Positions 1 through 29,124 of a stretch of DNA of 64,000 bases are shown here, one piece after another (within the stretch, counting starts at the first letter, position 1; each line of letters starts with the position of its first letter). The notes beneath the pieces are model-generated. The model was not told the DNA's origin. It worked only from the letters and a program-made list of their open reading frames with translations, and ran no database searches. Source of the DNA: Candidatus Peribacteria bacterium RIFOXYB1_FULL_54_35 (GTDB lineage: Bacteria > Patescibacteriota > Gracilibacteria > Peribacterales > Peribacteraceae). The stretch is taken from positions 83,130 through 147,129 of the forward strand of contig MFYJ01000013.1 of the NCBI GenBank assembly GCA_001787755.1, in the 5' to 3' direction. The translations under genes and the position numbers were made by a program.

Positions 1-330
1 AAGCTCAAGGGCAATACCCGCAGAGAGCCGCTTCCTGATTGTATTGCTGACGTAGAGGATGCTATCTGCCACGAGGTGCTCACATGCGAGACGAGCGGCA
101 AACAGTACAAAATCATCCGGCAGGAACTGGAATTCTACCGGGACACGCGTCTCCCCCTCCCGCGCAAGCACCCCGATGTGCGCATGCAGCGCAGGAGCAA
201 TATGCTCAGTGCACACAGGCTCTGGAACCGCACATGCGCGAAATGCGGGAAGAAGATACAGACTTCCTATGCACCTGATCGCCCGGAGATTGTGTATTGC
301 GAAAAGTGCTACCTCTCTGAAGTGTACTGA
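1..330 (+). CDS. Array copy 0: C-terminal fragment of a Cys-rich zinc-ribbon protein (5' end outside window)
   Basis: This is the last 109 codons of a gene that begins before the window. The reading frame is open from base 1 and ends in the array-wide C-terminal CxxC-x17-CxxC zinc ribbon (CAKC...CEKC) and the tail YLSEVY. The preceding C1 ribbon has lost its cysteine pairs: CETS replaces CxxC and HPDVR replaces CPDC, as in most paralogues. It is the first visible member of the tandem array and is followed after 71 bases by copy 1. The internal ATG at 76 is not a real start, because homology to the paralogues extends upstream of it. The function is unknown; two outer zinc sites are expected from the family pattern. 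Confidence 0.9.
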   Translation, partial: KLKGNTRREPLPDCIADVEDAICHEVLTCETSGKQYKIIRQELEFYRDTRLPLPRKHPDVRMQRRSNMLSAHRLWNRTCAKCGKKIQTSYAPDRPEIVYCEKCYLSEVY

Positions 331-401
331 CCAGAAGTCAGTAGGCAGAAGACAGAAGGCAGTTTAGAATAACTCCCTACTGACTTCTGACTTCTCACAT
401 C
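331..401. repeat. Family B intergenic hairpin
   Basis: This spacer is an inverted repeat built from the word CAGAAG/CTTCTG and its variants. A 13-bp arm at 333-345 is perfectly complementary to 376-388. A second member precedes copy 10 at about 17882-17952. It could act as a terminator for copy 0. No Shine-Dalgarno is visible before the ATG at 402. Confidence 0.8.
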
Positions 402-2069
402 ATGCAGAAAACATGTGAACAGTGCTCGGCTCCCTTCGACATAACCAATGAAGATCTTGCCCTGCTTGCAAGACTCTCGCTCACGCTCGACGGAAAAAAA
501 TTCGATCTTCCACCGCCGAGAGACTGTCCGGACTGCCGTCAGCAGCGCCGCATGTCGTTCCGGAATGAGCGAACACTCTACCGCAGGAAGTGCGACATTA
601 CAGGAAAGGACATCGTCTCCATCTTCCCGCCGGACTCTCCCTACAAAGTCTGCGACAAAGATTACTGGTACAGCGAGAAGTTCGATCCTTTTCCTTTTGG
701 CAGGAAATATGACTTCAACCGGCCATTCTTCGAACAATTCAAGGATCTGGAACTTTCCATTCCCCTGCCCTCCCTGCGCATAGAGCGCTCGGAGAACTGC
801 GACTTCAACAACGACATGCGTGACTGCAGGAACTGCTACCTCTGCTCACGTACACACGAATCGCAGGATCTGCTCTACACCTACCGCGGGAATAAGTCTT
901 CAAATTCCGTGGACTGCACGCAGATTACAAAATCGGAAATCATGCATGAGTGCGTGGAGTGCGTGAAGTGCTATAACTGCCGGTACCTCTTCTTCTGCAG
1001 CGAATGTACGGACTGTTCGTTCCTGCTCGACTGCAGAAGCTGCATGTCGTGCTTCATGTGCACGAACCTCCGCAATAAGCAGTACTGCTTCCTCAATGAG
1101 CAACTCACAAAAAACGAGTACAAGAAGAGGCTTGCGGAGTTTGATTTCGGCTCAGAGAATCACGTGCAGAAGGCCTATCGGATGTTCGCGGACATCAAGA
1201 AGAAAACCATACGGAGGGCTCTCATCCATGTGAATGCCGAAGATTCAACAGGCGATAACCTCTTTGACTGCAAGAACTGCCACCTCTGCTTCGGAACGCA
1301 GTTCTCACAGGACAGCCGGTACCTCTGGGACGTGAAGCTGTACAAAGATTCCATGGATGCATACAGCGGAGGGAGAAACAGCGAACTCATCTATTACACC
1401 ACTGCAGGGGCGGCATCCTACGGGGTGCAGTTCTGCCTCCGTACTTCCGAGTGCCACGATGTGCTGTACTCTTTCTTCCTCAATTCATCGGAGTATGTTT
1501 TCGGTTCCATCGGACTCAGGCGGGGAAAGTACTGCATTCTCAACAGGCAGTACTCAGAAGCGGAATACAGGCAACTGCTCCCGAAAATTGTGGAACACAT
1601 GGAAAGTACCGGAGAGTGGGGAGATTTCTTCCCGCCTTCCCTCTGCCCGTTTGCCTATAACGAGACAGTGGCACACGAGTACTTCCCCTTCACCAGCAAA
1701 GAGGCAAAAGAAAAGGGATACCGCTGGAAAGAACAGGACCCGAAGGACTATCGGAAGCAGACCCATCCCCTCCCCGAAAACATTGCCGATATTGGCGATG
1801 AGGTGACAAACACGATGCTTGCCTGTTCATCCTGCGGAAGGAATTACAAGATCGTTCCACAGGAGCTCAAATTCTACCGTGAACACACCGTTTCTGCTCC
1901 CCGCCTCTGCCCCGACTGCCGCCACATGCGCAGGCTCGGGACCAAGAATCCGCTGAAACTGCGGGAAGATACTTGCAGGAAGTGCAACAAGAGCATCATC
2001 ACTACATTCCCCGAGGGAACGGAAATGCAGATCTACTGCGACGAGTGCTATCTGAAAGAGGTGTATTAG
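402..2069 (+). CDS. Array copy 1: Cys-rich protein with terminal zinc ribbons and two internal Cys-repeat modules
   Basis: This 555-residue protein serves as the model for the family. Site N1 is CxxC...CPDC (C5, C8, C42, C45). Site N2, a CxxC-x17-CxxC ribbon in other copies, is degenerate here (CDIT...CDKD). Two Cys-rich modules follow (about 115-240 and 285-390), each a run of DCxxC-like steps ending in LR(x)KxYCxxN (near residues 223 and 372), which suggests a short-rung beta-helix with a cap. Then come a GEWGxFFP...FAYNET...EYFP segment, site C1 (C475, C478, C503, C506, intact, which is rare in the array) and site C2 (C525, C528, C546, C549). N1 resembles the zf-trcl-type ribbon and C2 fits the CxxC-x17-CxxC motif described for small zinc-binding proteins. 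No signal peptide or transmembrane segment is visible. Zinc binding is inferred and the biological role is unknown. Confidence 0.95.
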   Translation: MQKTCEQCSAPFDITNEDLALLARLSLTLDGKKFDLPPPRDCPDCRQQRRMSFRNERTLYRRKCDITGKDIVSIFPPDSPYKVCDKDYWYSEKFDPFPFGRKYDFNRPFFEQFKDLELSIPLPSLRIERSENCDFNNDMRDCRNCYLCSRTHESQDLLYTYRGNKSSNSVDCTQITKSEIMHECVECVKCYNCRYLFFCSECTDCSFLLDCRSCMSCFMCTNLRNKQYCFLNEQLTKNEYKKRLAEFDFGSENHVQKAYRMFADIKKKTIRRALIHVNAEDSTGDNLFDCKNCHLCFGTQFSQDSRYLWDVKLYKDSMDAYSGGRNSELIYYTTAGAASYGVQFCLRTSECHDVLYSFFLNSSEYVFGSIGLRRGKYCILNRQYSEAEYRQLLPKIVEHMESTGEWGDFFPPSLCPFAYNETVAHEYFPFTSKEAKEKGYRWKEQDPKDYRKQTHPLPENIADIGDEVTNTMLACSSCGRNYKIVPQELKFYREHTVSAPRLCPDCRHMRRLGTKNPLKLREDTCRKCNKSIITTFPEGTEMQIYCDECYLKEVY

Positions 2070-2125
2070 CGACTAGCGGTTAGCGTGTAGCGTATGGCTG
2101 CTAATCGCTAACCGCTAAACGCTCA
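2070..2125. repeat. Family A intergenic hairpin
   Basis: The perfect 11-bp arms AGCGGTTAGCG (2075-2085) and CGCTAACCGCT (2106-2116) lie between the stop of copy 1 and the promoter of copy 2. The arms and loop are variations on TAGCG/CGCTA. Confidence 0.85.
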
Positions 2126-2131
2126 TCGTTG

Positions 2132-2137
2132 TATACT
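2132..2137 (+). promoter_or_regulatory. -10 element TATACT of array copy 2
   Basis: TATACT lies 10 bases before the ATG at 2148, so transcription should start within about 4 bases of the start codon and give a leaderless mRNA. The same TATACT-N9/10-ATG arrangement precedes copies 4, 6, 8, 9 and 11. Confidence 0.7.
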
Positions 2138-2147
2138 TCAAAGCCTC

Positions 2148-3863: not shown

Positions 3864-3972
3864 TCGTATATGGAATATCGTATGTAGTATGTCGGACGAG
3901 CTTCTTGAAGATCTTTTGATTTTCTCTCCTTTTCATTCCCCACATACGACATACCACATACCATATACGACT
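3864..3972. repeat. Family C intergenic hairpin
   Basis: This spacer carries arms made from the words CGTATGTGGAATGTCGTAT and CACATACGACATACCATA. The two halves are complementary around a central GAAGATCTT segment. Related spacers precede copies 5 and 7, and another lies at 35741-35856. Confidence 0.8.
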
Positions 3973-5652: not shown

Positions 5653-5703
5653 CGACTAGCGGTTAGCGTGTAGCGTATAGCTGCTAATCGCTAACCGCTC
5701 AAA
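5653..5703. repeat. Family A hairpin between copy 3 and the convergent glycosyltransferase gene
   Basis: AGCGGTTAGCG pairs with CGCTAACCGCT around a TAGCGTATAGCTGCTAAT loop. It is placed to terminate copy 3 and possibly the convergent gene. Confidence 0.8.
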
Positions 5704-5733
5704 GTGGTGAACTCCCCACTTCAAAGGCATCAA

Positions 5734-6672
5734 TCAACCGTCATCTTTCCTATCCAGAAAGAATTGACGCACACGCGCATGGAGATTTGGCTTGTCTGTA
5801 GCCCAGTGCCAAAGCCCGTCCTTACCGATGGCAATATCCTTGGTGCAGTCGAAATCGTGTTCTTTCAGGTAGCCATAGCGTTCCAAGTACTGCCTGTTTG
5901 CGGAGTGGCCATGCCACAGATGAAAAATTCTTCCTTCCACGCATCCTACGGCGCCTTTGGCCATCTTTTGTGCCTTCTTCCTCCAATGCGCATAGTGCCT
6001 GTACATCTGTGTACTGAGCATCAACCGGGGATCCGGATGGTTATTCCACCCGAGAAATGCAGTCGCCATCAGAACGTCATTTCCTCCCACCACCAGATAA
6101 TCGTAGAGAGAACACCTGGAGAGCAGAGATCTTCTCGCGGCCCAGACAAATCCGGGTTGGAACACACGAAGATCTTCCATGGAAGCATGGTGTGCACCGG
6201 CTGCTTGCGCGAGCGATAGCCGCTGGAGCGCAGCAAACGTGTTGCTCCGATTGAATATTGAAACACTCGAGAAACACTGGGCCACCGGTACGTCTTCAAG
6301 AATGCGGGCCAGATCTGCCATCCAGTGACTGTTCTCAAACAGCACATCTGCATCCACCCATGCAACTTTGTCATACGCATGTACCGGGAGAGATGCAGCC
6401 AGAACATTCAATGCACGCTCCTTCTGCCAGAGAATATCAGGCGTACGTATCTGAAGCGTTTTTTCGGACGAAGGAAGAAAAAACTGCTGCTCTCCAAATG
6501 CCACTTCCACCGTCCACAAATCTGCACCCTGAGAACGCATGCTTTCGGCAAACCGCAGGTAGTTTTCTTTCAGTTTTTGGTACCCGGCGGGGTTGAAGTA
6601 CGGGGTGAGAACAGCAAGTTTTCCGGGAAGTTCCTTCCTGCCTGCCCGACGCGGAGAGAGAAAGAAATGCAT
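5734..6672 (-). CDS. Glycosyltransferase-like protein (GT-A type)
   Basis: This 312-residue protein starts at the ATG at 6672. The segment LAVLTPYFNPAGYQKLKENYLRF and the acidic motif VAWVDADVLFEN fit a GT-A fold in which DxD binds metal and nucleotide sugar. The frame stays open to a GTG at 6720, but TACAGT lies 9 bases before the ATG at 6672, matching the leaderless promoters of this window. A late W/H-rich stretch (GRIFHLWHGHSANRQYLERYGYL) resembles related glycan-transfer proteins. It is the only clearly enzymatic gene inside the array, on the opposite strand, and both flanks carry family A hairpins, as expected for a later insertion at a hairpin. Sugar donor and acceptor are unknown. Confidence 0.75.
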   Translation of the reverse strand: MHFFLSPRRAGRKELPGKLAVLTPYFNPAGYQKLKENYLRFAESMRSQGADLWTVEVAFGEQQFFLPSSEKTLQIRTPDILWQKERALNVLAASLPVHAYDKVAWVDADVLFENSHWMADLARILEDVPVAQCFSSVSIFNRSNTFAALQRLSLAQAAGAHHASMEDLRVFQPGFVWAARRSLLSRCSLYDYLVVGGNDVLMATAFLGWNNHPDPRLMLSTQMYRHYAHWRKKAQKMAKGAVGCVEGRIFHLWHGHSANRQYLERYGYLKEHDFDCTKDIAIGKDGLWHWATDKPNLHARVRQFFLDRKDDG

Positions 6673-6681
6673 GTATTCCCT

Positions 6682-6687
6682 ACTGTA
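6682..6687 (-). promoter_or_regulatory. -10 element TACAGT of the glycosyltransferase-like gene
   Basis: On the minus strand TACAGT is followed by 9 bases and then the ATG at 6672, which decides the start over the upstream GTG. Confidence 0.55.
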
Positions 6688-6737
6688 TGCACGAAAATGG
6701 AGACGCACAAGGAAGCGCACTGAGACGGTAAGCAGGA

Positions 6738-6781
6738 AGCGGTTAGCGTGTAGCGTTTAGCTGCTAATCGCTAACCGCTCA
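6738..6781. repeat. Family A hairpin upstream of array copy 4
   Basis: AGCGGTTAGCG and CGCTAACCGCT flank a TAGCGTTTAGCTGCTAAT loop. The sequence is almost the same as at 5653-5703, so the glycosyltransferase-like gene sits between two copies of one hairpin. Confidence 0.8.
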
Positions 6782-6783
6782 CC

Positions 6784-6812: not shown

Positions 6813-6818
6813 TCGTTG

Positions 6819-14034: not shown

Positions 14035-15708
14035 ATGCAGAAGACCTGCACTCAATGTTCGTCCTCCTTTGAGATCACGGATGAGGATCTCGCCTTCTAC
14101 GAGAAGATTTCTCCGGTCTTTAATGGAAAGAAAGAATCCATTCCGCCACCAACCCAATGTCCGGAATGCCGGATGCAGCGACGACTGACGTTCCGGAATG
14201 ATCGGAGCTTGTACCACAGCACCTCGAACCTATCCGGGAAGGCAACCATCTCCATGTACCACCCTGACCGGAAATATATCATCTACACACAACAGGAATG
14301 GTGGAGCGACGCGTGGGATCCACTCGCTTTCGGAGCGTCATTCGACCCGTCCGTCCCTTTTTTCATGCAATTCACCGCGCTGCAGCAGCGCGTGCCCCGT
14401 TTTCCCCTCTTCAACGTAGATTCGGAAAACAGCGACTACGTGAACTACGCACCTCACTGCAAGAACTGCTACCTTCTCTTCGGTTCCTGGTTCAACCACG
14501 ACTGCTCCTACGGCCAAACACTCACAGAATGCAAATCATCCTTCGATAACCTCTTCCTGGAAAAATCTGAGCTCTGCTATGAGTGCGTTGACTGCGCGAG
14601 TAATTACCGAACGTCTTTCTGCCACAGTTGCTCCAACTGCTCTGACAGCATGTTCTGCTTCGACTGCAAAAACGTCCGCAGCAGCGTTGGATGCTGGAAT
14701 CTCCGCAACAAGGAGTACTACCTGTTCAACAAACCTGCAACCAAAGGAGAGATTGATACCACACTCGCCCAAATGCACTCCGACAGAGGCTTGCGCACAC
14801 TGCGGGAGCGATACGGTCAGATGATACGGGAACGCGCCGTGCATCAGGCATTGACCGGGTCGAACAACGACGAGAGTTCCGGGGATTTCCTCTTCGAGTG
14901 TAAGAATGTCCGCCAGTGTTTCTCTGCCTACAGATGCCAAGACATGGCCTACTCTGCACGACTCATGGACCAGAAGGATACGTGGGATTTTGAGGGCGGT
15001 GGCAAAGGGGAACTCGCTTACGAAAGCATGAGCAACGATTTCGCCTTCCATTCCATCGCCTGCACTACAAGCGAGCATCTCACGGACAGCCACTACTGTG
15101 ATCTGTGCTTCGAGTGCAAGGACTGTTTCGGTTGTGTGGGTCTGCGACACAAGCAATGCTGCATCTTGAACAGGCAATACAGCAAGGAGGAGTACGATCG
15201 GCTCATTCCTCAGATTATCGAGAAAATGCGAGCGGATGGAGAGTGGGGTGAGTTCTTCCCGGTAGAATCGAGCCCCTTCGCCTACAATGAGACCATGGCA
15301 CAGGAATACTTCTTCCTCACAAAGAAAGAAGTTCTGAAGCGAGGGTGGAAGTGGCGGGACCAGACGGATGAGATGCCGACGGTTTCCAAAATCATTCCGG
15401 CGATGCAACTGCCGGATTCTATCGATGATATTCCCGATGACATCCTCAACTGGGCTGTTGAATGCGAAGAAACAAAAAGGCCGTTTAAAATCATCAAACA
15501 GGAATTAGAGTTCTACAGGTTAATGAAACTCCCCATTCCTCACTTCCACCCCGATGAGCGGCATAAGAGAAGGATGGCACAGCGTAATCCGCGGAAACTG
15601 TGGCAGAGGAAGTGCCATAAGTGCGGGAAGGAGATGCAGACCACGTACGGTCCTGAGAGGCCTGAGAGGGTGTACTGTGAGGAATGTTACTTGAAAGAGG
15701 TGTATTAG
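14035..15708 (+). CDS. Array copy 8: Cys-rich zinc-ribbon protein
   Basis: This copy has 557 residues from MQKTCTQC. The frame is open back to 13522 through the stub and spacer, but the promoter and family alignment set the start at 14035. N1 is CTQC...CPEC. N2 is degenerate, with no cysteine pair (STSNLSGK...YTQQEWWS). C1 is CEET...HPDERH and C2 is CHKC...CEEC. The first module has the typical YECVDCASNYRTSFCHSCSNC run. Its tail YLKEVY matches the neighbouring stub. The function is unknown. Confidence 0.95.
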   Translation: MQKTCTQCSSSFEITDEDLAFYEKISPVFNGKKESIPPPTQCPECRMQRRLTFRNDRSLYHSTSNLSGKATISMYHPDRKYIIYTQQEWWSDAWDPLAFGASFDPSVPFFMQFTALQQRVPRFPLFNVDSENSDYVNYAPHCKNCYLLFGSWFNHDCSYGQTLTECKSSFDNLFLEKSELCYECVDCASNYRTSFCHSCSNCSDSMFCFDCKNVRSSVGCWNLRNKEYYLFNKPATKGEIDTTLAQMHSDRGLRTLRERYGQMIRERAVHQALTGSNNDESSGDFLFECKNVRQCFSAYRCQDMAYSARLMDQKDTWDFEGGGKGELAYESMSNDFAFHSIACTTSEHLTDSHYCDLCFECKDCFGCVGLRHKQCCILNRQYSKEEYDRLIPQIIEKMRADGEWGEFFPVESSPFAYNETMAQEYFFLTKKEVLKRGWKWRDQTDEMPTVSKIIPAMQLPDSIDDIPDDILNWAVECEETKRPFKIIKQELEFYRLMKLPIPHFHPDERHKRRMAQRNPRKLWQRKCHKCGKEMQTTYGPERPERVYCEECYLKEVY

Positions 15709-15802: not shown

Positions 15803-17488
15803 ATGCAGCAAACCAGCCTCCGCACAGGCTCCGGCCGGCAAGCCTGCACCGTCTGCGGCACCGAGTTTGCCCACACAGCAGAGCAGTTGTCGCTCTTTCA
15901 GAAATTCGGGATGGGAAGCCCCCCGACGCAGTGCCTCCCCTGCAGGCACAAGCACCGGCTGAGCTTTAGGAACGGCCGCGTGCTCTACCGGCGCAAGTGT
16001 GACTTCTCGGGGGAGAGTACCGTCTCCGTGTTCGCACCGGACAAACCGTACAAGGTGTATCGCACGGACATCTGGTGGAGCGACCAGTGGAATCCTCTCG
16101 ACTATGGCAGAGACTTTGATTTTTCCCGCCCCTTCTTCGAGCAATTCCATGATCTGCAGCTCCAGGTCCCCCGCCCGGCACTCGCCAACATCAAGCCGGA
16201 GAACAGCCCTTTCTGCAACATGTGCGAGGGGAACAAGAACTGCTACCTCATCTGCGGCGGGGACTTTAACGAGGACTGCATGTACGGCATCTACGGGATG
16301 CACAACCGCAATGTCATGGATTGTGACGGGAGCAATGACAGCGAGTACTGCTACTTCATGAGCGATTCGTTTGAGTGCTACGGATGCCAGTTCGCCTTCG
16401 ACTCCAAGAACTGCAGCAACTGCGCGTTCATCAGTGACTGTACCGGCTGCACAGAGTGCATTCTCTGCACCAATCTCGTGCAGAAGAAACACTGTATAGA
16501 GAATGAGGAACTCTCTCCGGAGGAGTACAGGAAGCAGAAAGCGGCACTCCTGAACGGCACATACTCCCAGCAACAGCGCAACTGGGAGAAATTTCTCGCT
16601 ATGCGCGCCAAACGCATCGCGAAGTATGCGCACATCCTCAACTGCGAGGATTGCACCGGCGACTACGTGGTGAACTCCAAAGGCTGCAAAAACTGCTTTG
16701 ACACGTGGGATTGCGAGGACCTCCTGGATGTGATTCTCGCAAGCAAGACGAAAGACACGTTCCACTCCACCTGTATCGGGGACGACTCGGTGCTGTGCTT
16801 CAATATGCAATCCACAGTAGACGCGTACGAATGTTCGCACTCCTACCTCGTGTACAACAGCAGTAATGTGGAATACAGCGACCACATCGGGAGTTCCAAG
16901 AATATCTTCGGATGCGTCGGCCTCCACAGGAACGAGGAGTGCATCTTCAACAGGCAGTACTCAAAGGAGGAGTTTGGGAAGCTACGGTCAAAGATTATTG
17001 ATCATATGAAAGAAACAGGAGAATGGGGGCAGTTCCTGCCCAAGGAATGCTCGTGCTTCGGATACAACGAGAGCACGGCAAACGACTACTTCCCTCTCAC
17101 GAAGAAAGAGGCGCTGGCTCAGGGATTCTCCTGGTATCACGCTTCGGAAGAGAAGCTTTCTGTGGAGAAATCGATCCCCGCTGCAAAGCTCCCTGATGCT
17201 ATCGAGGACATTCCGGACGATATCCTCAACTGGGCGGTGATCTGCGAGAAGAGCAAGAAACCCTTCCGCATCATTAAGCAGGAATTGAACTTCTACCGCA
17301 CACATGAAATCCCAGTACCGCATCTCTCCTTCGAAGAGCGACACCTCACGAGACTTGCTCTGCGCACCCCAAAGGAGCTCTTTGAACGCACATGTGATAA
17401 GTGCGGGACAGTGATGCAATCGGCATACGCTCCTGAGAGACCTGAGACGGTGTACTGTGAGGCTTGTTACCTTTCTGAGGTTTATTAG
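15803..17488 (+). CDS. Array copy 9: divergent Cys-rich zinc-ribbon protein
   Basis: This copy has 561 residues from MQQTSLRTGSGRQACTVC. It shares the GRQAC extension with copies 2 and 4, but N1 is CTVCGTEF...CLPC with a different linker (AHTAEQLSLFQKFGMGSP), so it is one of the more divergent members. N2 is half lost (CDFSGEST...YRTDIWWS), C1 is CEKS...LSFEERH, and C2 is CDKC...CEAC. Both module caps are present (LVQKKHCIENEEL; LHRNEECIFNRQY). The function is unknown. Confidence 0.95.
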   Translation: MQQTSLRTGSGRQACTVCGTEFAHTAEQLSLFQKFGMGSPPTQCLPCRHKHRLSFRNGRVLYRRKCDFSGESTVSVFAPDKPYKVYRTDIWWSDQWNPLDYGRDFDFSRPFFEQFHDLQLQVPRPALANIKPENSPFCNMCEGNKNCYLICGGDFNEDCMYGIYGMHNRNVMDCDGSNDSEYCYFMSDSFECYGCQFAFDSKNCSNCAFISDCTGCTECILCTNLVQKKHCIENEELSPEEYRKQKAALLNGTYSQQQRNWEKFLAMRAKRIAKYAHILNCEDCTGDYVVNSKGCKNCFDTWDCEDLLDVILASKTKDTFHSTCIGDDSVLCFNMQSTVDAYECSHSYLVYNSSNVEYSDHIGSSKNIFGCVGLHRNEECIFNRQYSKEEFGKLRSKIIDHMKETGEWGQFLPKECSCFGYNESTANDYFPLTKKEALAQGFSWYHASEEKLSVEKSIPAAKLPDAIEDIPDDILNWAVICEKSKKPFRIIKQELNFYRTHEIPVPHLSFEERHLTRLALRTPKELFERTCDKCGTVMQSAYAPERPETVYCEACYLSEVY

Positions 17489-19717: not shown

Positions 19718-21415
19718 ATGCACAAGACCTGTGCCCACTGCTCGGCATCGTTCGAAATCACCGATGACGATCTCGCGTACTACAGCAAAATCTCGCCTGT
19801 GTTCCCTTCGACTGAGCTCAGGGCAGGCTACGGAAAGAACTACCCTGTCCCACCACCGACACACTGTCCGCAATGCCGTCAGCAGCGCCGCTACGCAATC
19901 CGCAATGAGCGCAATTTGCACAGACGGAACTGTGCTATGTGCAAGAGAAACATTCTTTCGATGTACTCTCAGGACAAACCCTTCACGGTGTTCTGCCCGG
20001 AATGCTGGTGGGGGAACAAATGGCACGGAGCTGACTATGGAAGGGGCATTGACTTCGGAAGACCGTTCTTCGAGCAGTTTGCCGAACTGCAGCGCAGCGT
20101 TCCGCGCATCAGCCTGTACCTGGTGAACTCGGAGAACTGTGACTTCTGCAACTTCGTTGGCGATTGTAAAAGCTGCTACCTGACGTTTGGCTCCGTCTAC
20201 TCTGAGGATTGCCTGTACGGATCGGCGTACTACTCCAAAAACTGCGTCGACAGCCTCGTCACTCGTGAGTGTGAACTCAGCTATGAGTGCTCGGATTGCA
20301 GGAAACTCTACCGGTGCCTGTTCTGTCAGGACTGTTACGGCTCAGACCACCTCCTCTACTGCTACGACATGCAGGGGTGCAGCGAGTGCATCGCCTGCGC
20401 AGGACTCCGGAACAAGCAGTACTACATTGGGAACACACCATTCTCCAAAAGTGAATATGAGGAAAGGAAGAGAAAGATCGACCTCTGCAGCGCGGCACAG
20501 ACAGAGAAACTCCGGAAGCAACTGGAGAGTATCAAGCTCGGCATTGTCCGCCATTACATGCCAAGTACCAACGTGCAGAACGTGAGCGGCACGCACATCT
20601 ACAACTCCAAGAACACATTCCAGTCATTCTACGTGGACCGCTGTGAAGACTGCGCGTACTGCATGCAGGTGGTGGATCTGAAGGATTGCCACGACAACAA
20701 CTACACGGAAGAGAATGAGCTCTGCTATGAGTACCTCGGCATGTACGGGGCGAAGAACACGTTCTTCTCCAACTTCTGCCGCCATACCTACGGGGTGTGC
20801 TGCTCCGACTACTGCATCAACAGCAAGTACCTCTTTGGCTGCTCCGGAATGCGTGATAAGGACTACTGCATCTTCAACAAACCGTACACGAAGGAGCAGT
20901 ACGAAGAACTGGTCCCAAAGCTCATAGCGCACATGCAAGCCACAAAGGAATGGGGGGAGTTCTTCCCTACCGCTATTTCTCCTTTCTGCTACAACGAGAC
21001 TGTCGCCCAGGAATACTTCCCTCTCACGAAGGATCAGGCATTGGGTAAGGGATACCGATGGCAGGATACGAAAGACGACATGCCTGAAGTGCAGAAAGTG
21101 ATTGCTGCAAGAGAGCTTCCTGCCGCCATCGAGGATATTCCCGACGATGTGCTGCACTGGGCCATACGATGCGAGGCAACCGGCAGACCTTTTAAGATCA
21201 TCAGGCAGGAACTGGACTTCTACCGTCAGATGCGGCTCCCCCTCCCTCACCTCCATCCGGATGAGCGCCACAGGAGAAGACTCTCGCTCAGAAATCCGCG
21301 AAAGCTTTGGCCGAGAACATGCGGAAAGTGCGGGGAGGAGATACAGACCACATACGCACCCGAGAGACCGGAGAAAGTGTATTGTGAAGCTTGTTACCTC
21401 TCTGAGGTGTATTAG
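19718..21415 (+). CDS. Array copy 11: Cys-rich zinc-ribbon protein with an in-frame REP insertion
   Basis: This copy has 565 residues from MHKTCAHC. N1 (CAHC...CPQC) and N2 (CAMC...CPEC) are intact, C1 is CEAT...HPDERH, and C2 is CGKC...CEAC. Between SPVF and GKNYP the protein has nine extra residues (PSTELRAGY) that no other copy has; their DNA (19805-19831) is a CCTTCGACTGAGCTCAGG element of the kind found between genes here. The frame is kept and the insert lies in the N1 linker between the two cysteine pairs, so it lengthens a loop without removing a ligand. Its stop lies in a hairpin shared with the convergent TrmB gene. The function is unknown. Confidence 0.95.
   Translation: MHKTCAHCSASFEITDDDLAYYSKISPVFPSTELRAGYGKNYPVPPPTHCPQCRQQRRYAIRNERNLHRRNCAMCKRNILSMYSQDKPFTVFCPECWWGNKWHGADYGRGIDFGRPFFEQFAELQRSVPRISLYLVNSENCDFCNFVGDCKSCYLTFGSVYSEDCLYGSAYYSKNCVDSLVTRECELSYECSDCRKLYRCLFCQDCYGSDHLLYCYDMQGCSECIACAGLRNKQYYIGNTPFSKSEYEERKRKIDLCSAAQTEKLRKQLESIKLGIVRHYMPSTNVQNVSGTHIYNSKNTFQSFYVDRCEDCAYCMQVVDLKDCHDNNYTEENELCYEYLGMYGAKNTFFSNFCRHTYGVCCSDYCINSKYLFGCSGMRDKDYCIFNKPYTKEQYEELVPKLIAHMQATKEWGEFFPTAISPFCYNETVAQEYFPLTKDQALGKGYRWQDTKDDMPEVQKVIAARELPAAIEDIPDDVLHWAIRCEATGRPFKIIRQELDFYRQMRLPLPHLHPDERHRRRLSLRNPRKLWPRTCGKCGEEIQTTYAPERPEKVYCEACYLSEVY
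19804..19828. repeat. REP-like palindrome inserted in the coding region of array copy 11
   Basis: The core CCTTCGACTGAGCTCAGG matches the inverted form of the CCTGAGC...TCGAAGG elements at 6784, 15752 and 41110. Twenty-seven bases are added in frame. Confidence 0.75.
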
Positions 21416-21450
21416 CGGTTAGCGTGTAGCGACTAGCCGCTCATCGCTCA
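21412..21450. terminator. Family A hairpin containing the stop codons of two convergent genes
   Basis: TAGCGGTTAGCG...CTAGCCGCTCATCGC forms an imperfect stem. Copy 11 stops at 21413-21415 and the minus-strand TrmB gene stops at 21421-21419, both inside the left arm. It is a likely bidirectional terminator, although no T-run is present. Confidence 0.55.
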
Positions 21451-22219
21451 TCACCGCCGCCCCCCACATCACCTCAAACCATGCCCGGAACGTATCTGCC
21501 AGGTGCTTGTTCTCTATGCGCACGATGGTTTTCTCGTCATCGAAGGCAAAGAGAGCAACCGTATTACCAAAGACGACCGTGTCGGTATCGAAGCTGATTC
21601 CTTTTGGAAGAAGGCGGACATCGTAGCCCTCATGCATTGGAACCTCTTTGAGGTATTTCCTCGACCCTTCGTTATCCACAAGTAAATCACGACCCCGGAT
21701 GATTGCGTCTTCCCCGAAAAGAATGGTGACAATGTTTCCTCCGAATGTTTTGTAGGAGACCTCCGGGTTGTAGATGCCAACAAACTCCTGTACGAGGATC
21801 TCGCGGTACACCTGGCGCATCCCGCTGAGACCGCTGAGGGTCGTCACCCGCGGCGTACTTGGGAGCGGTGCCTTCATGTTATCCAACAGTGGCAATGCCC
21901 CTTCCACCAGAGGGCGCAGATCTTCCAGTTTCTGCACACGATCCTCCAGGTACCCGAGTAGCCGCTTCGGTGACTCCGCCACAAAGTGGATGATCTTCCC
22001 GCGCTCAATTTCGGACACAAGTCCCCTCTCTTTGAGCTCCCGAAGAATGAGGTACGTGTGGCTGCGCGACTGGCGTGCTGCTTTCGCGACGGTACTCGCA
22101 CGCGCCATCTTGAGCGGCAGCAACGCGAGATATATTTCAATCTCCTTGTCTTCCAGCCCCAGCTGCCTGAGGAGCGGGCGGATTGCCTGCGTGCCGGAGA
22201 TATGTGGTGAGGTGGTCAT
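21419..22219 (-). CDS. TrmB-family transcriptional regulator
   Basis: This protein has 266 residues from MTTSPHISG. The N-terminal winged helix (LRQLGLEDKEIEIYLALLPLKMARASTVAKAARQSRSHTYLILRELKERGLV) is typical of TrmB proteins, followed by a coiled segment and a larger effector or dimerisation domain. The open frame runs 25 codons further upstream through REP-like sequence, so I place the start at the first ATG after it. The last residues (MSDERLVATR) are encoded by the intergenic hairpin. It is divergent from the small membrane protein gene at 22496, and the 276-base gap between them holds a near-perfect 20-bp palindrome, a likely operator for autoregulation and for the membrane-protein/copy 12 operon. 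The effector is unknown. Confidence 0.8.
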   Translation of the reverse strand: MTTSPHISGTQAIRPLLRQLGLEDKEIEIYLALLPLKMARASTVAKAARQSRSHTYLILRELKERGLVSEIERGKIIHFVAESPKRLLGYLEDRVQKLEDLRPLVEGALPLLDNMKAPLPSTPRVTTLSGLSGMRQVYREILVQEFVGIYNPEVSYKTFGGNIVTILFGEDAIIRGRDLLVDNEGSRKYLKEVPMHEGYDVRLLPKGISFDTDTVVFGNTVALFAFDDEKTIVRIENKHLADTFRAWFEVMWGAAVMSDERLVATR

Positions 22220-22239
22220 AGTATGCAAAGGTGCAAAGC

Positions 22240-22345
22240 ACGTCATCCCGAGCGTCACCCTGAGCGGAGCCGAAGGGCGAGGGCCGACTGTCATCCTGAG
22301 GTGCGACCCCGAGCGCAGCGAGGGGGAGCCTCGAAGGATAAGTCG
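22240..22345. repeat. Cluster of REP-like elements
   Basis: The cluster contains CATCCCGAGCG, CCCTGAGCGGAGCCGAAGGGCGAGGG and GACCCCGAGCGCAGCGAGGGGG in succession, all variations of the CTGAGC...TCGAAGG palindrome. Confidence 0.7.
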
Positions 22346-22926: not shown

Positions 22927-24606
22927 ATGCAACAAACATGCGCACAGTGCTCGGCAGCGTTCAGCGTTCACAATGAGGATCTGCAAATGCTCGATGAGCT
23001 CTCTCCCGTCATCGGAGGAGTGAAGCTGAGCCTCCCCTCCCCGACCATGTGCCCGGACTGCAGACTGCAACGAAGACAGGCACATGTGAACCACGTAAAC
23101 CTCTACGAGAGAACATGCGATCTTTCCGGAGCACCCATCATCTCCAATACGCACCCCTCTGCCCCATACACGGTGTACGACCAGGAAGTCTGGTACAGCG
23201 ACAAATGGGATGCACATAAGTACCAGAGAAAGTACGACTTCTCCCGACCGTTCTTTGAGCAACTCAAGGAACTGATAGATGAGGTACCACGACCAAATCT
23301 GATGACCGGATACGAATTCGATGAGAACTGCGACTACACAAACTACGCCGGGAAGAACAAGGACTGTTACCTGATATTTGACAGTGATGAGAATCGGGAC
23401 TGCTTCTACAGCTACAGCCTAAACCACTGTGTCAATTGCGTCGGGTGCTACAGGACCCGCAAGTCGGAACTCTGTTACGAGTGCGTCGACTGCGTGAAGT
23501 GTTACGGCTCTGCGTACCTGCAAGACTGCGATAACTGTGCCGACTCGGTCTTCCTCAAAAATTGCACGGGATGCAAGAACTGTCTGATGTGCAGCAACAT
23601 CAAGAATAAAGAGTACTGGGTGGAGAATAAGCCCGTCGGCAAAGAAGAATTCGGAAAGCTCCGCGCAATGCTGGGCAGCCACTCGGCGGTGGAATCCGCA
23701 AGAGGACGGTTCGAGAAACTGAAGCTTGAATTCCCGCAGAAGTATATGCACGGCGTACAGAATGAAGATGTGGAAGGCGATTACCTGGTGAACTGCAAAA
23801 ATGCCTTCAACTGTTTCGACAGCGAAGACTTGTGGGACTGCAGATACGTCTATCAGGGCTTCATGCCACTGAAGACCTGCATGGACATCCACGAGTGCGG
23901 TGAAGGAGAACGGTTGTACGAATGCTCCGTGGCAGGCTATGAGATCAACAGTTGCTGCTTCTGCAACCACACGCTCGCCAATATGAGCGACATGCTCTAC
24001 TGCTCACTCTGCCACCACTCAAACCACTGCTTCGGATGTGTGGGCCTGCGCCGAAAGAAATACTGCATTCTCAATAAGCAGCACAGCAAAGAGGAGTACG
24101 AGGAGCTGGTACCCAAGATTGTGGAACACATGCGCGGCACCGGAGAGTGGGGCGAGTTCTTCCCTGTCTCCATTGCCACATACGCGTACAACGAAACCAT
24201 CGCGCAGGATTACTACCCTCTCACGAAAGATGAGGTGAAACGCAGGGGCTGGCAGTGGTTTGATGATGTGGAGAAGAAGGAGCAGAAAACGGGAGAGCCT
24301 GCGGAACTTCCGGACAGCATAGATGACACCCCCGAAGATATATGCGGAAAGATCCTGACCTGCGAGGAATCCGGGAGGCAGTACAAAGTTATCCCGCAGG
24401 AACTGGAATTTCATAAGAAACTGCACGTACCGCTCCCCCGTACCAGCTTCTTCAAGCGGTACAGAAACCAGCTCGCCATGCGGAACAAGCGCATCCTCCA
24501 CAATAGGAAATGTGACAAGTGCGGTGCAGCCATTCGTACGAGTTACCAACCAGGCCGGCCCGAGCAAATATACTGCGAACCCTGCTACCAGGAATCACTG
24601 AGTTAG
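22927..24606 (+). CDS. Array copy 12: divergent Cys-rich zinc-ribbon protein in an operon with a membrane protein
   Basis: This copy has 559 residues from MQQTCAQC. The ATG follows the TAA of the preceding gene after two bases (TAAGTATG), so the upstream open frame to 22795 is not used. N1 is CAQC...CPDC. N2 keeps one cysteine (CDLSGAPI...YDQEVWYS). C1 has changed completely (CEESGRQY...TSFFKRYRNQ), and C2 is CDKC...CEPC with an unusual tail YQESLS instead of YLxEVY. It is the most divergent C terminus in the array and seems outside the gene-conversion group. The function is unknown. Confidence 0.95.
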   Translation: MQQTCAQCSAAFSVHNEDLQMLDELSPVIGGVKLSLPSPTMCPDCRLQRRQAHVNHVNLYERTCDLSGAPIISNTHPSAPYTVYDQEVWYSDKWDAHKYQRKYDFSRPFFEQLKELIDEVPRPNLMTGYEFDENCDYTNYAGKNKDCYLIFDSDENRDCFYSYSLNHCVNCVGCYRTRKSELCYECVDCVKCYGSAYLQDCDNCADSVFLKNCTGCKNCLMCSNIKNKEYWVENKPVGKEEFGKLRAMLGSHSAVESARGRFEKLKLEFPQKYMHGVQNEDVEGDYLVNCKNAFNCFDSEDLWDCRYVYQGFMPLKTCMDIHECGEGERLYECSVAGYEINSCCFCNHTLANMSDMLYCSLCHHSNHCFGCVGLRRKKYCILNKQHSKEEYEELVPKIVEHMRGTGEWGEFFPVSIATYAYNETIAQDYYPLTKDEVKRRGWQWFDDVEKKEQKTGEPAELPDSIDDTPEDICGKILTCEESGRQYKVIPQELEFHKKLHVPLPRTSFFKRYRNQLAMRNKRILHNRKCDKCGAAIRTSYQPGRPEQIYCEPCYQESLS

Positions 24607-24624: not shown

Positions 24625-26316
24625 ATGCTGAAGACATGCGCTCAGTGCGGTTCGGCCTTCGACATCACCGACGAAGATCTCGCTCTCCTCGACAAAGTTT
24701 CTCCCGTTGTCGGGGATAAAAAGTTCGCACTCCCTCCCCCGACCATGTGTTTTCACTGCCGCCTGCAGAGACGGCTGGCCTTCTATAATGCCCGATCGCT
24801 GTATCACCGGAAGTGTGATCTCACAAAGCAACCAATTGTCTCAATCTATTCACCAGACAAACCATTCACGGTATATGAGCGCCGCGCATGGTATGGCGAT
24901 GGATGGGACCCCCTGGAGTATGGAATGGATTTTGATTTTAGCAGGCCGTTCTGTGATCAGTTCCGAGCACTGATGGAAACCGTGCCGCTTCTTTCATTGG
25001 CAGTATTAAGCGATAACGTGAATAGTGAATTTACCAATGATAACCTGGCACTGAAAAATTGCTACCTTATTTTTGATGGTGAGCGTGCAGAAGAGTGCCT
25101 GTACGGACACACTTTTGCCGGCATAAAATCCTGCCTGGATTTTGTAGTTTTAACCGACTGTGAGCTGTGTTACGAGTGCATACACTGCGAGAATTGCTAC
25201 AATTGTAAATATGCCCGATACAGCATCAACTGCAGCGATAGCTGGTTTTTAAGAGATTGTATCAGCTGCAAATATTGCTTTGGGTGCGCAAATTTGCGGC
25301 AGAGAAAATTTTGTATCTTCAATGAACAGAAGACAAAAGAAGAATATGGAGCGTTCATGCGGCAGTTTCAAACTTCATCCTTTCCCGCAGCCCAGGAGAT
25401 GAAGAAGAAATCCGATGCCTTCTCTCTCACACAACCAGTTAAAGCAGTACGGGGCGAGCAGAACATTGACGTCATGGGAGATAATATCTACCAGTCCAAA
25501 GATTCATCATCCTGCTTTGACTGCTATAGAATGCAGGATTGCCAGTACTGCACCGATTGCCTTGTCGGCGCCAAAGATTGCTGCGATATCCATATTTGGG
25601 GTGACGCAATGGAACTCAGCTACAACTGCTGCGTTGCCGGCGTCCGGGTGCGGAACCTGCTCAGCTGCTACTACGTTTCGGAAGGATGCGATAATGTATT
25701 CTATTCAATCTACTGCAGCCGGCAGAGCCGGAATCTGTTCGGATGCATCGGCCTGAGGCATAAGAGCAACTGCATCTTCAATAAGCAGTACAGCAATGAA
25801 GAATTTGAGCAACTCGCACAGAAAATTATTGAGCACATGCAGCGCACAGGTGAGTGGGGGGAGTTCTTCCCTCCCACCATCTCTTCATTCGGCTATAACG
25901 AAACCATGGCACAAACCTTCTTCCCTCTGGAAAAAAAAGAAGTACTAGCACGCGGATGGCAGTGGGGTGACTTCGAGGCACCGGTGGAAGCCGATCGTAC
26001 GATCAGGACAAGCCAGTTGCCCGACGATGCGAATGATACCCCGGATGACGTGCTCAACTGGGCTCTCCTCTGCGAAGTGACCGGAAAGCCTTTCAAAATC
26101 ATCAAACAGGAACTGCAATTCTATAGAGATCACCGGTTACCGCTCCCCCGCCGCCACCCGAACCAGCGCCACGCTGACCGGTACGGATTCAAGAACCCAT
26201 ACAGGCTCTGGAACCGCGCATGTGCCCATTGCAGGAAGCCGATAACCACAAGCTACGCACCCGAGCGGCCGGAGAAGGTGCTCTGCGAGGAATGCTATTT
26301 AAAAGAGGTGTACTAG
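24625..26316 (+). CDS. Array copy 13: Cys-rich zinc-ribbon protein
   Basis: This copy has 563 residues from MLKTCAQC; a TTG at 24607 would add six codons but would lie between the -10 box and the ATG. N1 is CAQC...CFHC, and N2 keeps one cysteine (CDLTKQPI...YERRAWYG). C1 is CEVT...HPNQRH and C2 is CAHC...CEEC. Base composition is visibly more A/T-rich in the middle (about 25000-25350) than in neighbouring copies. No hairpin separates it from copy 12. The function is unknown. Confidence 0.95.
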   Translation: MLKTCAQCGSAFDITDEDLALLDKVSPVVGDKKFALPPPTMCFHCRLQRRLAFYNARSLYHRKCDLTKQPIVSIYSPDKPFTVYERRAWYGDGWDPLEYGMDFDFSRPFCDQFRALMETVPLLSLAVLSDNVNSEFTNDNLALKNCYLIFDGERAEECLYGHTFAGIKSCLDFVVLTDCELCYECIHCENCYNCKYARYSINCSDSWFLRDCISCKYCFGCANLRQRKFCIFNEQKTKEEYGAFMRQFQTSSFPAAQEMKKKSDAFSLTQPVKAVRGEQNIDVMGDNIYQSKDSSSCFDCYRMQDCQYCTDCLVGAKDCCDIHIWGDAMELSYNCCVAGVRVRNLLSCYYVSEGCDNVFYSIYCSRQSRNLFGCIGLRHKSNCIFNKQYSNEEFEQLAQKIIEHMQRTGEWGEFFPPTISSFGYNETMAQTFFPLEKKEVLARGWQWGDFEAPVEADRTIRTSQLPDDANDTPDDVLNWALLCEVTGKPFKIIKQELQFYRDHRLPLPRRHPNQRHADRYGFKNPYRLWNRACAHCRKPITTSYAPERPEKVLCEECYLKEVY

Positions 26317-26351: not shown

Positions 26352-27113
26352 TTATCCTCTCCCCAGTAAATCAAAAATGAAGTGGAAAATCTGGCTCAGT
26401 TCCGCCTGCTTGATCTTCAGGCCTACCTGACCGCCTTTGTACGTCGCGAGGTAGACCGCATGCCCCGCAACAAAGATGTTGCTCGTCCCCCGCGCAATGG
26501 GGAGCCGGGAAAGATCGAGTTCCGCGGGAGGGACTTTCTTCAGGTGTTCCGGTATGAGGCCACCGGTGGCCTCAAACAATTCCACCTGAATTTTCCGCTT
26601 TCGCAGATCTTCGAAGAACGCCCGCACGGTTTTGCTCAGTGGCTCATCCTCCACCCGCTCCTCAAAGGTGTTGGAGCTGAGCATCCGGAGTTGCTTCAGC
26701 TCACTGGACAGAAGCTCATGCAGCATGTCGCGAAAGAGACTTTTAATGCCCGCTTCACCTTCGAACATCTGGAGCTTGGGGATGATGTCCTCCTGACTCC
26801 GCAGGGACTGAAGGATATTCAGTGCCGTGGGGAACTGCTTCATGAGTTCCTCATACTTCTCCACTCCGTCCTTAAGATGCTCCTCAATGGCATCGAAACT
26901 CTCTATCCCGAAACACTGCACACCTTCCCGAAAATACGTTTTCACAAATCCACGTTCAGCGAGTTTCTTGAGATGCTTGTAGGTTGTAATGCGGTCAAGA
27001 TCGCACCGGCGGGCAATCACCGATGCCGGCTGCACACCAAGTTCTGCGAGAACCAGGTAGATGGCACGCTCTTTCTCGGTAAAATCCAGTTTGGCAAGGT
27101 ACTGCGAGAGCAT
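26352..27113 (-). CDS. TrmB-family transcriptional regulator
   Basis: This protein has 253 residues. The N-terminal HTH (LAKLDFTEKERAIYLVLAELGVQPASVIARRCDLDRITTYKHLKKLAERGFV) is clear, followed by a helical linker and a C-terminal sensor-like domain with the segment GTSNIFVAGHAVYLATYKGGQVGLKIKQAELSQIFHFIFDLL, the usual closing element of the TrmB effector domain. It is convergent with copy 13 and divergent from copy 14 across a 262-base gap that contains three inverted repeats. Like the regulator at 21419-22219 it faces array copies on both sides, which suggests, but does not prove, control of array expression. Confidence 0.8.
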   Translation of the reverse strand: MLSQYLAKLDFTEKERAIYLVLAELGVQPASVIARRCDLDRITTYKHLKKLAERGFVKTYFREGVQCFGIESFDAIEEHLKDGVEKYEELMKQFPTALNILQSLRSQEDIIPKLQMFEGEAGIKSLFRDMLHELLSSELKQLRMLSSNTFEERVEDEPLSKTVRAFFEDLRKRKIQVELFEATGGLIPEHLKKVPPAELDLSRLPIARGTSNIFVAGHAVYLATYKGGQVGLKIKQAELSQIFHFIFDLLGRG

Positions 27114-27375: not shown

Positions 27376-29055
27376 ATGGAACGCATATGTAAACGCTGCC
27401 AGGCACACTTCATAGTCCACAAAGACGAAGAAGACTTCCTGCAGAAGATCGGATTCAAGTATGGGAAAACGGAGGTGCATCTTCCTCTCCCCGTCTACTG
27501 CCCGGACTGCCGGTGCCAGTTACGTACCTGCCACAGGAACGAACGGAACATGTACAAAGTCCGCTCCTCCTTCTCCGGGAAGGACATCATCTCCGTGTAC
27601 GCACAGGAACAGTCCTGGGGAGACAAGCCCTTTAAAATCTACTCCCAGGAAGAGTGGCGGAGTGACGCGTGGGATCCTATGGAGTATGGGAGGAACTTTG
27701 ATTTCACCCGCCCATTCTTCGATCAGTTTGCAGAGCTACAGCAGCAAGTCCCCCGACAAGCGCTCATTTCCATCAGCAACGAAAACTCGGGGTTCACAAC
27801 GGGAACGGGCTTCTGTAAGAACTGCTACCTCATTAACTCCTCGGAGTACTGTGAGGACTGCTACTACGGCAAGCTCCTGCAGACTTGTAAGGACTCCGTG
27901 GACTGCAGCTACCTCTACAATTCCGAGCTCTGCTACGAGTGCTTCAGCTGCTACGAGTGCTATAACTGCCAGTACGTCTCCTTCAGTACCAACTGCTCGG
28001 ACTGCATGTTTTCCAGCAACCTCAAGTCCTGCACAAACTGCTGCCTGTGCACGAACCTCTCCCAGAAGGAGTACCACTTCATGAATGAGCCTCTGAGCAA
28101 GGAGGAGTACGAAAAGCGGCTGAAGGATTTCCGCGGGAGCTATCCCCTCACGGAGAAAATGCGGAATCTCTACCGGAAGACGATTGGCACGATGGTCCGC
28201 AAGTACGCCAACATCGTGAGCTGCCAAAACTGTACCGGCGACTACGTAGAACACTCCAAGAACTGCCTCGATTGCTACGATGTGAATGAGAGCGAAGACT
28301 GCCGGTACGTGCAGGTTGGCGTGCAGGTGAAGGATAACTACGACTGCTCCAACATGTACATCAAACCGGAGCTCTGTTACGAGACACTGGGAACCATAGA
28401 AGTGTATGGCAGCGCGTATTGTCTCTTCATCTTCCACAGCAAGCGGATGCTGTACTGCGACTTCTGCTACCACAGCGAAGACTGCTTCGCCTGCACGGGG
28501 CTCACCCACAAGAAGCACTGCATCTTCAATAAGCAGTACAGCAAGGAGGAGTACGAAGCACTTGTGCCGAAAATCATCGCACACATGCAATTGACCGGGG
28601 AATGGGGCTTGTACTTCCCATCACGGTACGCCCCATTCGGATACAACGAATCCCTTGCATTTGAATATTTTCCTCTCAGTAAAGAAGAAGCGCTGAAGCA
28701 GGGATTTCTGTGGAGGGACTCCGACGCAAAGGACAGAAAACCGCAAACAGCTGCGTTTCCGGACAGCATCGCGGACGCAGCAGACAGCATTACGCAGGAA
28801 ATTTTCTGCTGCAGCGACTGCAGCAAGAACTTCCGGATTATTCCGCAGGAACTGGATTTCTACCGCAGGCAGGCTCTCCCCATCCCCCGCAAGTGCCAGG
28901 AATGCCGTCATACGGACAGAATGCACTTCAGGAACCCCCGCAGGCTCTGGAATCGCACATGCGCGAAGTGCAGAGAAGCTGTGCAGAGCACCTCTGCACC
29001 TGATCGTCCTGAAACGATCTATTGCGAATCCTGTTACATTAAGACAGTCTACTAA
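27376..29055 (+). CDS. Array copy 14: divergent Cys-rich zinc-ribbon protein, last full copy
   Basis: This copy has 559 residues from MERICKRC, the start that matches the family; TTG/ATG codons at 27340-27345 would add 12 residues. N1 is CKRC...CPDC with a longer linker. N2 is lost entirely (SSFSGKDI...IYSQEEWRS, with a 6-residue insert), but C1 is intact (CSDC...CQEC), a state shared only with copy 1. C2 is CAKC...CESC, tail YIKTVY. The two copies with intact C1 are therefore the first and last complete ones. The modules retain the caps LSQKEYHFMNEPL and LTHKKHCIFNKQY. The function is unknown. Confidence 0.95.
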   Translation: MERICKRCQAHFIVHKDEEDFLQKIGFKYGKTEVHLPLPVYCPDCRCQLRTCHRNERNMYKVRSSFSGKDIISVYAQEQSWGDKPFKIYSQEEWRSDAWDPMEYGRNFDFTRPFFDQFAELQQQVPRQALISISNENSGFTTGTGFCKNCYLINSSEYCEDCYYGKLLQTCKDSVDCSYLYNSELCYECFSCYECYNCQYVSFSTNCSDCMFSSNLKSCTNCCLCTNLSQKEYHFMNEPLSKEEYEKRLKDFRGSYPLTEKMRNLYRKTIGTMVRKYANIVSCQNCTGDYVEHSKNCLDCYDVNESEDCRYVQVGVQVKDNYDCSNMYIKPELCYETLGTIEVYGSAYCLFIFHSKRMLYCDFCYHSEDCFACTGLTHKKHCIFNKQYSKEEYEALVPKIIAHMQLTGEWGLYFPSRYAPFGYNESLAFEYFPLSKEEALKQGFLWRDSDAKDRKPQTAAFPDSIADAADSITQEIFCCSDCSKNFRIIPQELDFYRRQALPIPRKCQECRHTDRMHFRNPRRLWNRTCAKCREAVQSTSAPDRPETIYCESCYIKTVY

Positions 29056-29059
29056 TATG

Positions 29060-29094
29060 GATTCGCCCTGAGCGAGTGAAACGAGTCGAAGGGC
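29060..29094. repeat. REP-like element fused to the second array stub
   Basis: TTCGCCCTGAGCG...GAGTCGAAGGGCGAA has 8-bp outer arms and directly abuts the stub at 29095. Confidence 0.65.
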
Positions 29095-29124
29095 GAAGAA
29101 TGCTACCTGGCGGAAGTGTATTGA
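29095..29124 (+). pseudogene. Second C-terminal stub of a lost array copy
   Basis: Thirty bases encode EECYLAEVY plus stop. The junction (TCGAAGGGC followed by the EECYL codons) is the same as at 13934, and a family A-type hairpin follows, as after complete copies. Confidence 0.8.

Follow-up and report, generated by a model that had tools for sequence, protein, structure and literature searches.

A tandem family of ribbon-capped solenoid proteins co-inherited with a coupling-type ATPase in Peribacteria and related bacteria

We analyzed a 64,000-nucleotide stretch of DNA from Candidatus Peribacteria bacterium RIFOXYB1_FULL_54_35 (hereafter the window; positions 83130-147129 of contig C13 in genome G000, an assembly of 1.56 Mb in 16 contigs that is 97.85% complete). 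Positions 1-29055 of the window encode a single family of cysteine-rich proteins in 14 complete genes and the end of a further one, which share the plus strand, and these are followed by a gene for an ATPase of the type IV coupling protein (T4CP) type. An initial annotation, made from the letters of the window alone, had described a plus-strand array of 15 genes; its 14 full genes and their common orientation stand, and the array is larger than described. In total, 21 intact head-to-tail open frames span 42.5 kb (C13:69662-112181), beginning about 13.4 kb ahead of the window start, and a further open copy of 640 codons, the 22nd, lies on contig C7. What had been called a fragment at the left edge belongs to an intact gene: the window boundary cuts through it and leaves its 3′ end inside. 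A short two-gene form, with frames of 341 and 110 codons, is present on contig C11 (G000:C11:114588-115903, locus L008). Pairwise identity among the 21 array copies ranges from 34 to 59% (mean 42%). Because of this divergence, the presence of same-strand arrays in other assemblies and the period-three spacing of the cysteines described below, chance and collapsed assembly, the artefact that the annotation had named as its refutation, are excluded and the array is genuine. It is broken up by three minus-strand genes (Table 1); two minus-strand genes, inside or just before the array, appear glycosyltransferase-like by eye.

Table 1. Genes of the array and its ATPase (window positions unless a contig is named; aa, amino acids; pLDDT, predicted local distance difference test; pTM, predicted template modeling score)
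Feature	Position	Strand	Remarks
TrmB-type regulator	C13:68667	-	just ahead of array gene 1
Array gene 7, 3′ end	1..330	+	intact 575-codon frame C13:81732-83456, cut by window edge
Array gene 8, 555 aa	402..2069	+	C1 ribbon ligands complete
Array gene 9, 571 aa	2148..3863	+	
Array gene 10, 559 aa	3973..5652	+	conserved ATG taken as start; listed open reading frame begins 3613
Interspersed gene	5734..6720	-	glycosyltransferase-like by eye; without Pfam match
Array gene 11, 568 aa	6835..8541	+	
Array gene 12, 562 aa	8652..10340	+	
Array gene 13, 554 aa	10405..12069	+	structure model mc775a314d4e8, pLDDT 88.5, pTM 0.89
Array gene 14, 561 aa	12180..13865	+	
Array gene 15	14035..15708	+	conserved ATG taken as start; listed frame begins 13522
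Array gene 16	15803..17488	+	likely ATG taken as start; listed frame begins GTG 15767
Array gene 17, 561 aa	17953..19638	+	solenoid-only model m18327ec08938, pLDDT 84.5, pTM 0.78
Array gene 18	19718..21415	+	likely ATG taken as start; listed frame begins TTG 19694
TrmB-type regulator	21419..22294	-	upstream of array gene 19; PF01978 45.8 bits, cut-off 25.6
Array gene 19	22927..24606	+	likely ATG taken as start; listed frame begins GTG 22795
Array gene 20	24625..26316	+	likely ATG taken as start; listed frame begins TTG 24607
TrmB-type regulator	26352..27113	-	upstream of array gene 21; PF01978 37.8 bits, cut-off 25.6
Array gene 21	27376..29055	+	last one ahead of ATPase; C1 ribbon ligands complete
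T4CP-type ATPase, 747 aa	29233..31476	+	PF10412, PF02534, PF12696 above cut-off; synteny, clade and co-occurrence with array family

The statement that nothing in the neighborhood names a function proved partly wrong, since a T4CP-type ATPase and TrmB-type regulators recur beside the array. An array gene lies directly upstream of the ATPase, on the same strand and without an intervening frame of 200 or more codons, in 15 of the 22 class genomes inspected (G000, G092, G376, G135, G259, G188, G276, G234, G251, G360, G284, G226, G155, G198 and G242), the upstream neighbor in G376 being the array tail at the contig start; similarly, among the listed public loci an array gene immediately precedes seven of the eight array-type ATPases. 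ATPases linked to the array form one clade, and the other paralogous ATPases, which are common in these genomes whether or not they have an array, fall outside it. A first comparison covered 36 genomes: all 21 with an array had a close ATPase (at least 52% identity), and none of the 15 others did. We also surveyed 192 genomes of the class, calling full-length array members at E ≤ 1e-100 and close ATPases at E ≤ 1e-175. The former were found in 98 genomes (about half) and the latter in 76; comparison of the two lists gave 75 genomes with both genes, 1 with the ATPase only, 23 with the array only and 93 with neither. Sixteen of the 23 array-only genomes read TGA as glycine and encode a full-length ATPase of 750-778 codons that belongs to the array-linked clade; in 13 of the 16 the examined stretch also includes array genes, and in G496 an ATPase fragment lies at a contig end beside the array. 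When these 16 and G496 are added to the 75, the array-type ATPase is present in 92 of 98 array genomes, compared with 1 of 94 genomes without an array at the threshold used. Furthermore, genomes of one genus can differ by having both genes or neither (G276 versus G325; G064 and G342 versus G078; G506 versus G106).

Each array protein consists of ribbon, solenoid, solenoid and ribbon parts, with a length of 554-573 aa in the window. Homology links the N-terminal to the C-terminal ribbon pair (hhalign, 99.7%) and one cysteine module to the other (99.85%), and both are therefore internal duplications; control comparisons of ribbon with solenoid gave less than 1%. The plan originally read from the sequence (N1 and N2 ribbons, two cysteine modules, C1 and C2 ribbons) is thus borne out, and the description as cysteine-rich zinc-ribbon and solenoid proteins is supported. 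By a regular-expression count, complete CxxC...CxxC sets are present in 14 of 14 window proteins for N1 and for C2, in 5 of 14 for N2 and in 2 of 14 for C1, so that several putative zinc sites have lost ligands. Cysteine makes up 5.9-8.0% of the 14 window proteins, and of the cysteine pairs separated by at most 40 residues, 79% have a spacing divisible by three, compared with 32.5 ± 1.2% in shuffled sequences. Among homologs the solenoid cysteines are exchanged for S, T, V or L, as expected for core packing. No close fold was found in the PDB for the structure models; the solenoid model weakly resembles left-handed beta-helices, the fold of LpxA, LpxD and GlmU, and not the right-handed helix that had been suggested. 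Five of the 14 window proteins were scanned, and none reached a Pfam or NCBIfam cut-off; in the same five the treble-clef families stayed below their gathering scores (PF23477, best 25.5 versus 27 bits; PF13451, 19 versus 24); a precomputed match to PF23477 or PF13451 exists for 7 of 120 listed homologs. Short frames of about 104-139 codons that match the C-terminal ribbon pair only occur in genomes with and without arrays (G166:C1:963742-964002, G106:C2:268706-268969 and G000:C11:28712-28972) and are possibly an ancestral ribbon protein.

One set of near-invariant residues is found at each end of the array protein, R46/R50/R54/N55 and R506/R510/R514/N515, in an R-x3-R-x3-R-N pattern. Together with the sub-threshold treble-clef similarity and the resemblance of the ATPase to DNA translocases of the TraD, VirD4 and CedD types (itself below the NCBIfam cut-offs), these positions would suit nucleic-acid-binding factors, either RNA or DNA chaperones or chromosome organizers, that bind through arginine-rich ends while the ATPase translocates the same DNA. 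By itself this explanation leaves 21 paralogs with different, highly conserved solenoids unaccounted for, and we consider it unlikely.

The window ATPase scores above the Pfam gathering thresholds for TrwB_AAD_bind (32.1 versus 20.5), T4SS-DNA_transf (27.8 versus 20.1) and TraG-D_C (22.4 versus 22), and below the curated NCBIfam cut-offs (TraD, CD1115, CedD and others; the best were TIGR03743, 46.8 versus 366 bits, and NF045973, 43.5 versus 250). No hydrophobic transmembrane segment was found in its first 330 residues. More generally, hydropathy gave no support for an N-terminal membrane anchor in array-type ATPases (maximum 19-residue means of 0.57-1.36 in the 22 class genomes plus G014, G274, G307 and G340, the G046 frame being partial at 693 codons); by the same measure, 7 of 20 paralogous ATPases gave 2.26-3.03 and the other 13, some with their ends cut, at most 1.54. 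Among the neighbors examined, no relaxase, mobilization or type IV secretion system (T4SS) gene was recognized beside the ATPase (Pfam on nine neighbors and ten window proteins). These features bear on the idea that the array proteins are cargo, handed by the dedicated ATPase to the T4SS of Patescibacteria for export to the inside or the surface of partner cells, with the ends as export signal and the solenoid as working part. The Pfam matches to coupling proteins agree with such a role. Hydropathy also confirmed the reported lack of signal peptides, since none of the 22 copies in the source genome has a signal peptide, transmembrane segment or hydrophobic N-terminus, so that export would need another route. 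In addition, conservation over 132 homologs is among the highest in the C-terminal ribbons (mean entropy 1.06 bits), a VirB4-like gene (PF19044, over cut-off) was found in all 7 genomes tested, and T4SS genes are reported in the cited passages to be essential for epibiotic growth, with their substrates left open (PMC12857230, PMC12102498). However, by hydropathy no N-terminal membrane segment is present in the array-type ATPase; conservation extends to the N-terminal ribbons, which leaves no single-end signal; and the VirB4-like gene lies on another contig (C7, not C13, in G000) and is also carried by array-less relatives. Moreover, of the T4SS genes found essential in a Saccharibacterium the coupling gene itself is not one, according to the cited part of PMC12102498, which speaks against a simple export model. 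We regard cargo as a rather unlikely role, less likely than that of adaptor, which is developed below.

Non-orthologous copies are 33% identical in the solenoid (paralog range 30-36%) and 47% identical in the ends. In whole-protein reciprocal best pairs this order is reversed, with 74.5% in the solenoid and 65% in the ends; the solenoid is ahead of the ends in 84 of 90 such pairs, versus 212 of 3,479 other pairs. For the sister species G135 and G376 the solenoid, at 94% identity, is ahead in all 14 ortholog pairs (Wilcoxon p 1.2e-4). The ratio of nonsynonymous to synonymous divergence (dN/dS), calculated by the Nei-Gojobori method over these 14 pairs, is 0.050 and 0.061 for the two solenoids, 0.142 and 0.100 for the ribbons and 0.15 for the linker and mid-C parts, and solenoid dN (0.031-0.034) is the lowest of all parts. 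The strong selection proposed for the family is thereby upheld. Fourteen of the 21 copies in the source genome have orthologs across genera at 57-79% identity, compared with an average of 42% between paralogs. From these sequence comparisons, the family appears to consist of old, fixed specificities carried on shared ends, and the recognition of diverse ligands proposed at the outset fits the pattern as an interpretation, not an observation. That solenoids diverge between paralogs yet show the highest conservation of any part between sister-species orthologs contradicts the alternative that the array is a variable protein reservoir for antigenic or phase variation, and all 21 copies in the source array and nearly all relatives are open. 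Paralogs do stand in tandem, and there is some sign of exchange between their ends: of 93 each, 26 and 28 ribbon ends have their nearest neighbor in the same genome, versus 13 and 11 solenoids, which, combined with the higher synonymous divergence of the ends given below, suggests such exchange. Metal storage, for which the high cysteine content might speak, gained no positive evidence, and the replacement of solenoid cysteines runs counter to it. We consider both the reservoir and the storage function very improbable.

Outside the source genome, a single-query protein search gave at least 7,311 relatives among 7,997 candidates scored, and at least 78 public loci carry the family. Their titles name Peribacteria, Peregrinibacteria, Gracilibacteria, Abawacabacteria or Patescibacteria, or in some cases only "bacterium", which agrees with the placement of the window in the candidate phyla radiation. 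A full-length member also occurs on a contig titled Micrarchaeota archaeon UBA10214 (L107, DUGF01000091.1), perhaps through a binning error. Among the loci listed, all members lie on one strand in 57 of the 58 with two or more member frames. The scored genomes hold between 3 and 21 full copies (G135, 21; G376, 16 on the contigs examined; G251, 15; G259, 8; G188 and G234, 4 each; G276, 3). In 11 listed loci from Gracilibacteria-type genomes (L071, L103, L106, L108, L114, L117, L119, L122, L123, L126 and L139) the genes are broken in the standard code, and reading TGA as glycine (code 25) gives frames of at least 560 codons in all 11; the family is therefore kept in recoded lineages too. The short two-gene form, a solenoid frame with a separate C-terminal ribbon frame, is found also at L055:7934-9176 and L059:3487-4854 and adjoins the ATPase in G121 and G334; it may be a relative of the array protein with a simpler make-up.

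A presence that is patchy even within genera and a widely varying copy number would also be expected of a conflict or defense system, in which a HerA- or T4CP-like ATPase acts with a panel of sensors, each solenoid serving for one class of foreign molecule. The similarity of the ATPase to mad8 (1.8e-12, 45.4 bits) and HerA (3.2e-06, 23.8 bits) in PADLOC points the same way. However, the solenoids are under strong purifying rather than diversifying selection, two array proteins scanned had no PADLOC match, and viral contigs yielded just one partial relative. Furthermore, no nuclease or other effector gene recurs beside the array, the widely recurrent genes being those of the array, the ATPase and the TrmB type only. 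A role in defense is accordingly quite improbable.

The TrmB-type genes were compared across arrays. The regulator upstream of array gene 19 has a relative at 52% identity in the G251 array, and the gene just ahead of array gene 1 has relatives (72% identity or more) at the array 5′ end in G135, G376, G276, G234 and G092, with a distant relative (32%) in G188. TrmB-type frames are present in 24 of 78 listed loci, and 28 of the 30 frames lie on the strand opposite the array. One of the regulators gave weak CARF/CasR/Csa3 matches in PADLOC. A promoter-like GTTGTATACT-type element (GTTGTATACTNNAAA, at most 1 mismatch), in which GTTGTATACTNNAAA resembles an extended -10 element, is located directly ahead of six array start codons (2128, 6815, 10385, 14015, 15784 and 19699), so that several copies may be transcribed separately. 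A hairpin-type intergenic repeat, AGCGGTTAGCGNNTAGCG (at most 2 mismatches), occurs 24 times, versus a mean of 0.02 in shuffles, at window positions 2068-21431 and 31475-31499, nearly always between array genes. Further downstream of the ATPase, we noted a minus-strand frame of 1,769 aa (52169-57478), in which an EDRTLMS-like stretch was seen by eye, and, at 38626-45109, SLH or thrombospondin type 3 repeat proteins.

Because the ATPase is co-found in 92 of the 98 array genomes, the array proteins are likely to be a fixed set of interchangeable recognition parts. From this co-inheritance, which is observed, we infer their function: with a probability of about 0.4, they are adaptor subunits for a dedicated, repurposed coupling-type ATPase. 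Each solenoid would bind one fixed partner molecule, and the shared treble-clef-like ends, through their R-x3-R-x3-R-N pattern, would dock on the ATPase or on nucleic acid. TrmB-type regulators could select the sub-groups that are expressed, and the ATPase would move or remodel whatever the bound adaptor brings. All steps would be cytoplasmic, unless the ATPase passes cargo to a type IV secretion machine, for which there is a VirB4-like gene elsewhere in the genome. A bolder version, which we put forward as possible though doubtful, is that an orphan type IV coupling ATPase of Peribacteria and Gracilibacteria has become the hub of a modular recognition machine, in which one ATPase serves an evolutionarily fixed set of zinc-capped solenoid subunits, up to dozens in number; each subunit would have a conserved target of its own, and TrmB-type regulators would switch the subunits in sub-groups. 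If so, one of the thousands of orphan T4CP genes in Patescibacteria would for the first time have a known set of partners or cargo.

Several observations weigh against the adaptor interpretation. When pairs were set by the ends alone, mean identities were 62% for the solenoid and 64% for the ends, and the solenoid was the better conserved of the two in 62 of 101 pairs. Synonymous divergence (dS) is higher in the ends (0.85-1.0 versus 0.56-0.63), which may be due to gene conversion and would inflate the divergence of the ends. The C-terminal ribbons match LIM domains weakly, a similarity that says nothing specific. As for synteny, 7 of the 22 class genomes have no array gene directly ahead of the ATPase: one gene stands between in G064, array genes are nearby in G004 and G217, the short two-gene form is directly downstream in G121, G342 and G046 have no array gene in the stretch examined, and in G309 the contig ends there. 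Similarly, 6 of the 98 array genomes have no detected array-type ATPase (G530, G392, G440, G495, G452 and G527), and G450 has the ATPase with no array detected. Finally, G259 gave no match to the upstream TrmB gene, and TrmB genes are common elsewhere in these genomes, so that part of their association with the array is background.

Ribbons, a beta-solenoid, a T4CP-type ATPase and TrmB regulators are all of known kinds; their co-inherited combination matched no described module, and our literature search found no description of the array family or module. The array ribbons resemble zf_Tbcl (PF13451), zf_Tbcl_2 (PF23477) and NCBIfam TIGR04272, below cut-off, and differ in that the array chain has two ribbon pairs flanking two solenoids. 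Clustered cysteine-rich genes are known from the same class in Ca. Peribacter riflensis, where the cited passages describe a secreted cluster with a mean length of 1,655 aa and signal peptides in most members (PMC4736985); in contrast, the array proteins have about 560 aa and no signal peptide by hydropathy. In Patescibacteria, VirD4-type T4CPs number 5,713 homologs in 2,918 genomes, of which only 148 are near virB4, and exaptation of these genes is left possible (both from the cited part of PMC12102498). The array ATPase is of the same kind, and the sections cited do not mention the array family or the sub-clade tied to it. The link to one ATPase clade provides the array family with a first testable partner, and the orphan T4CP genes of Patescibacteria, described as numerous and unexplained (PMC12102498), with a first candidate role. 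A solenoid panel that is diverse between paralogs and frozen between orthologs is an unusual design in a streamlined genome and makes clear binding predictions. Compared with canonical T4CPs (VirD4/TraG/TraD/TrwB), the array ATPase shares the domains recognized by Pfam, has no N-terminal membrane segment by hydropathy and has a large tandem solenoid family as its co-inherited partners. Type IV coupling complexes with adaptors are known, such as Dot/Icm DotL with IcmS/W. In Legionella, substrates are recognized by proteins separate from the coupling-type ATPase, according to the cited passage (PMC12857230).

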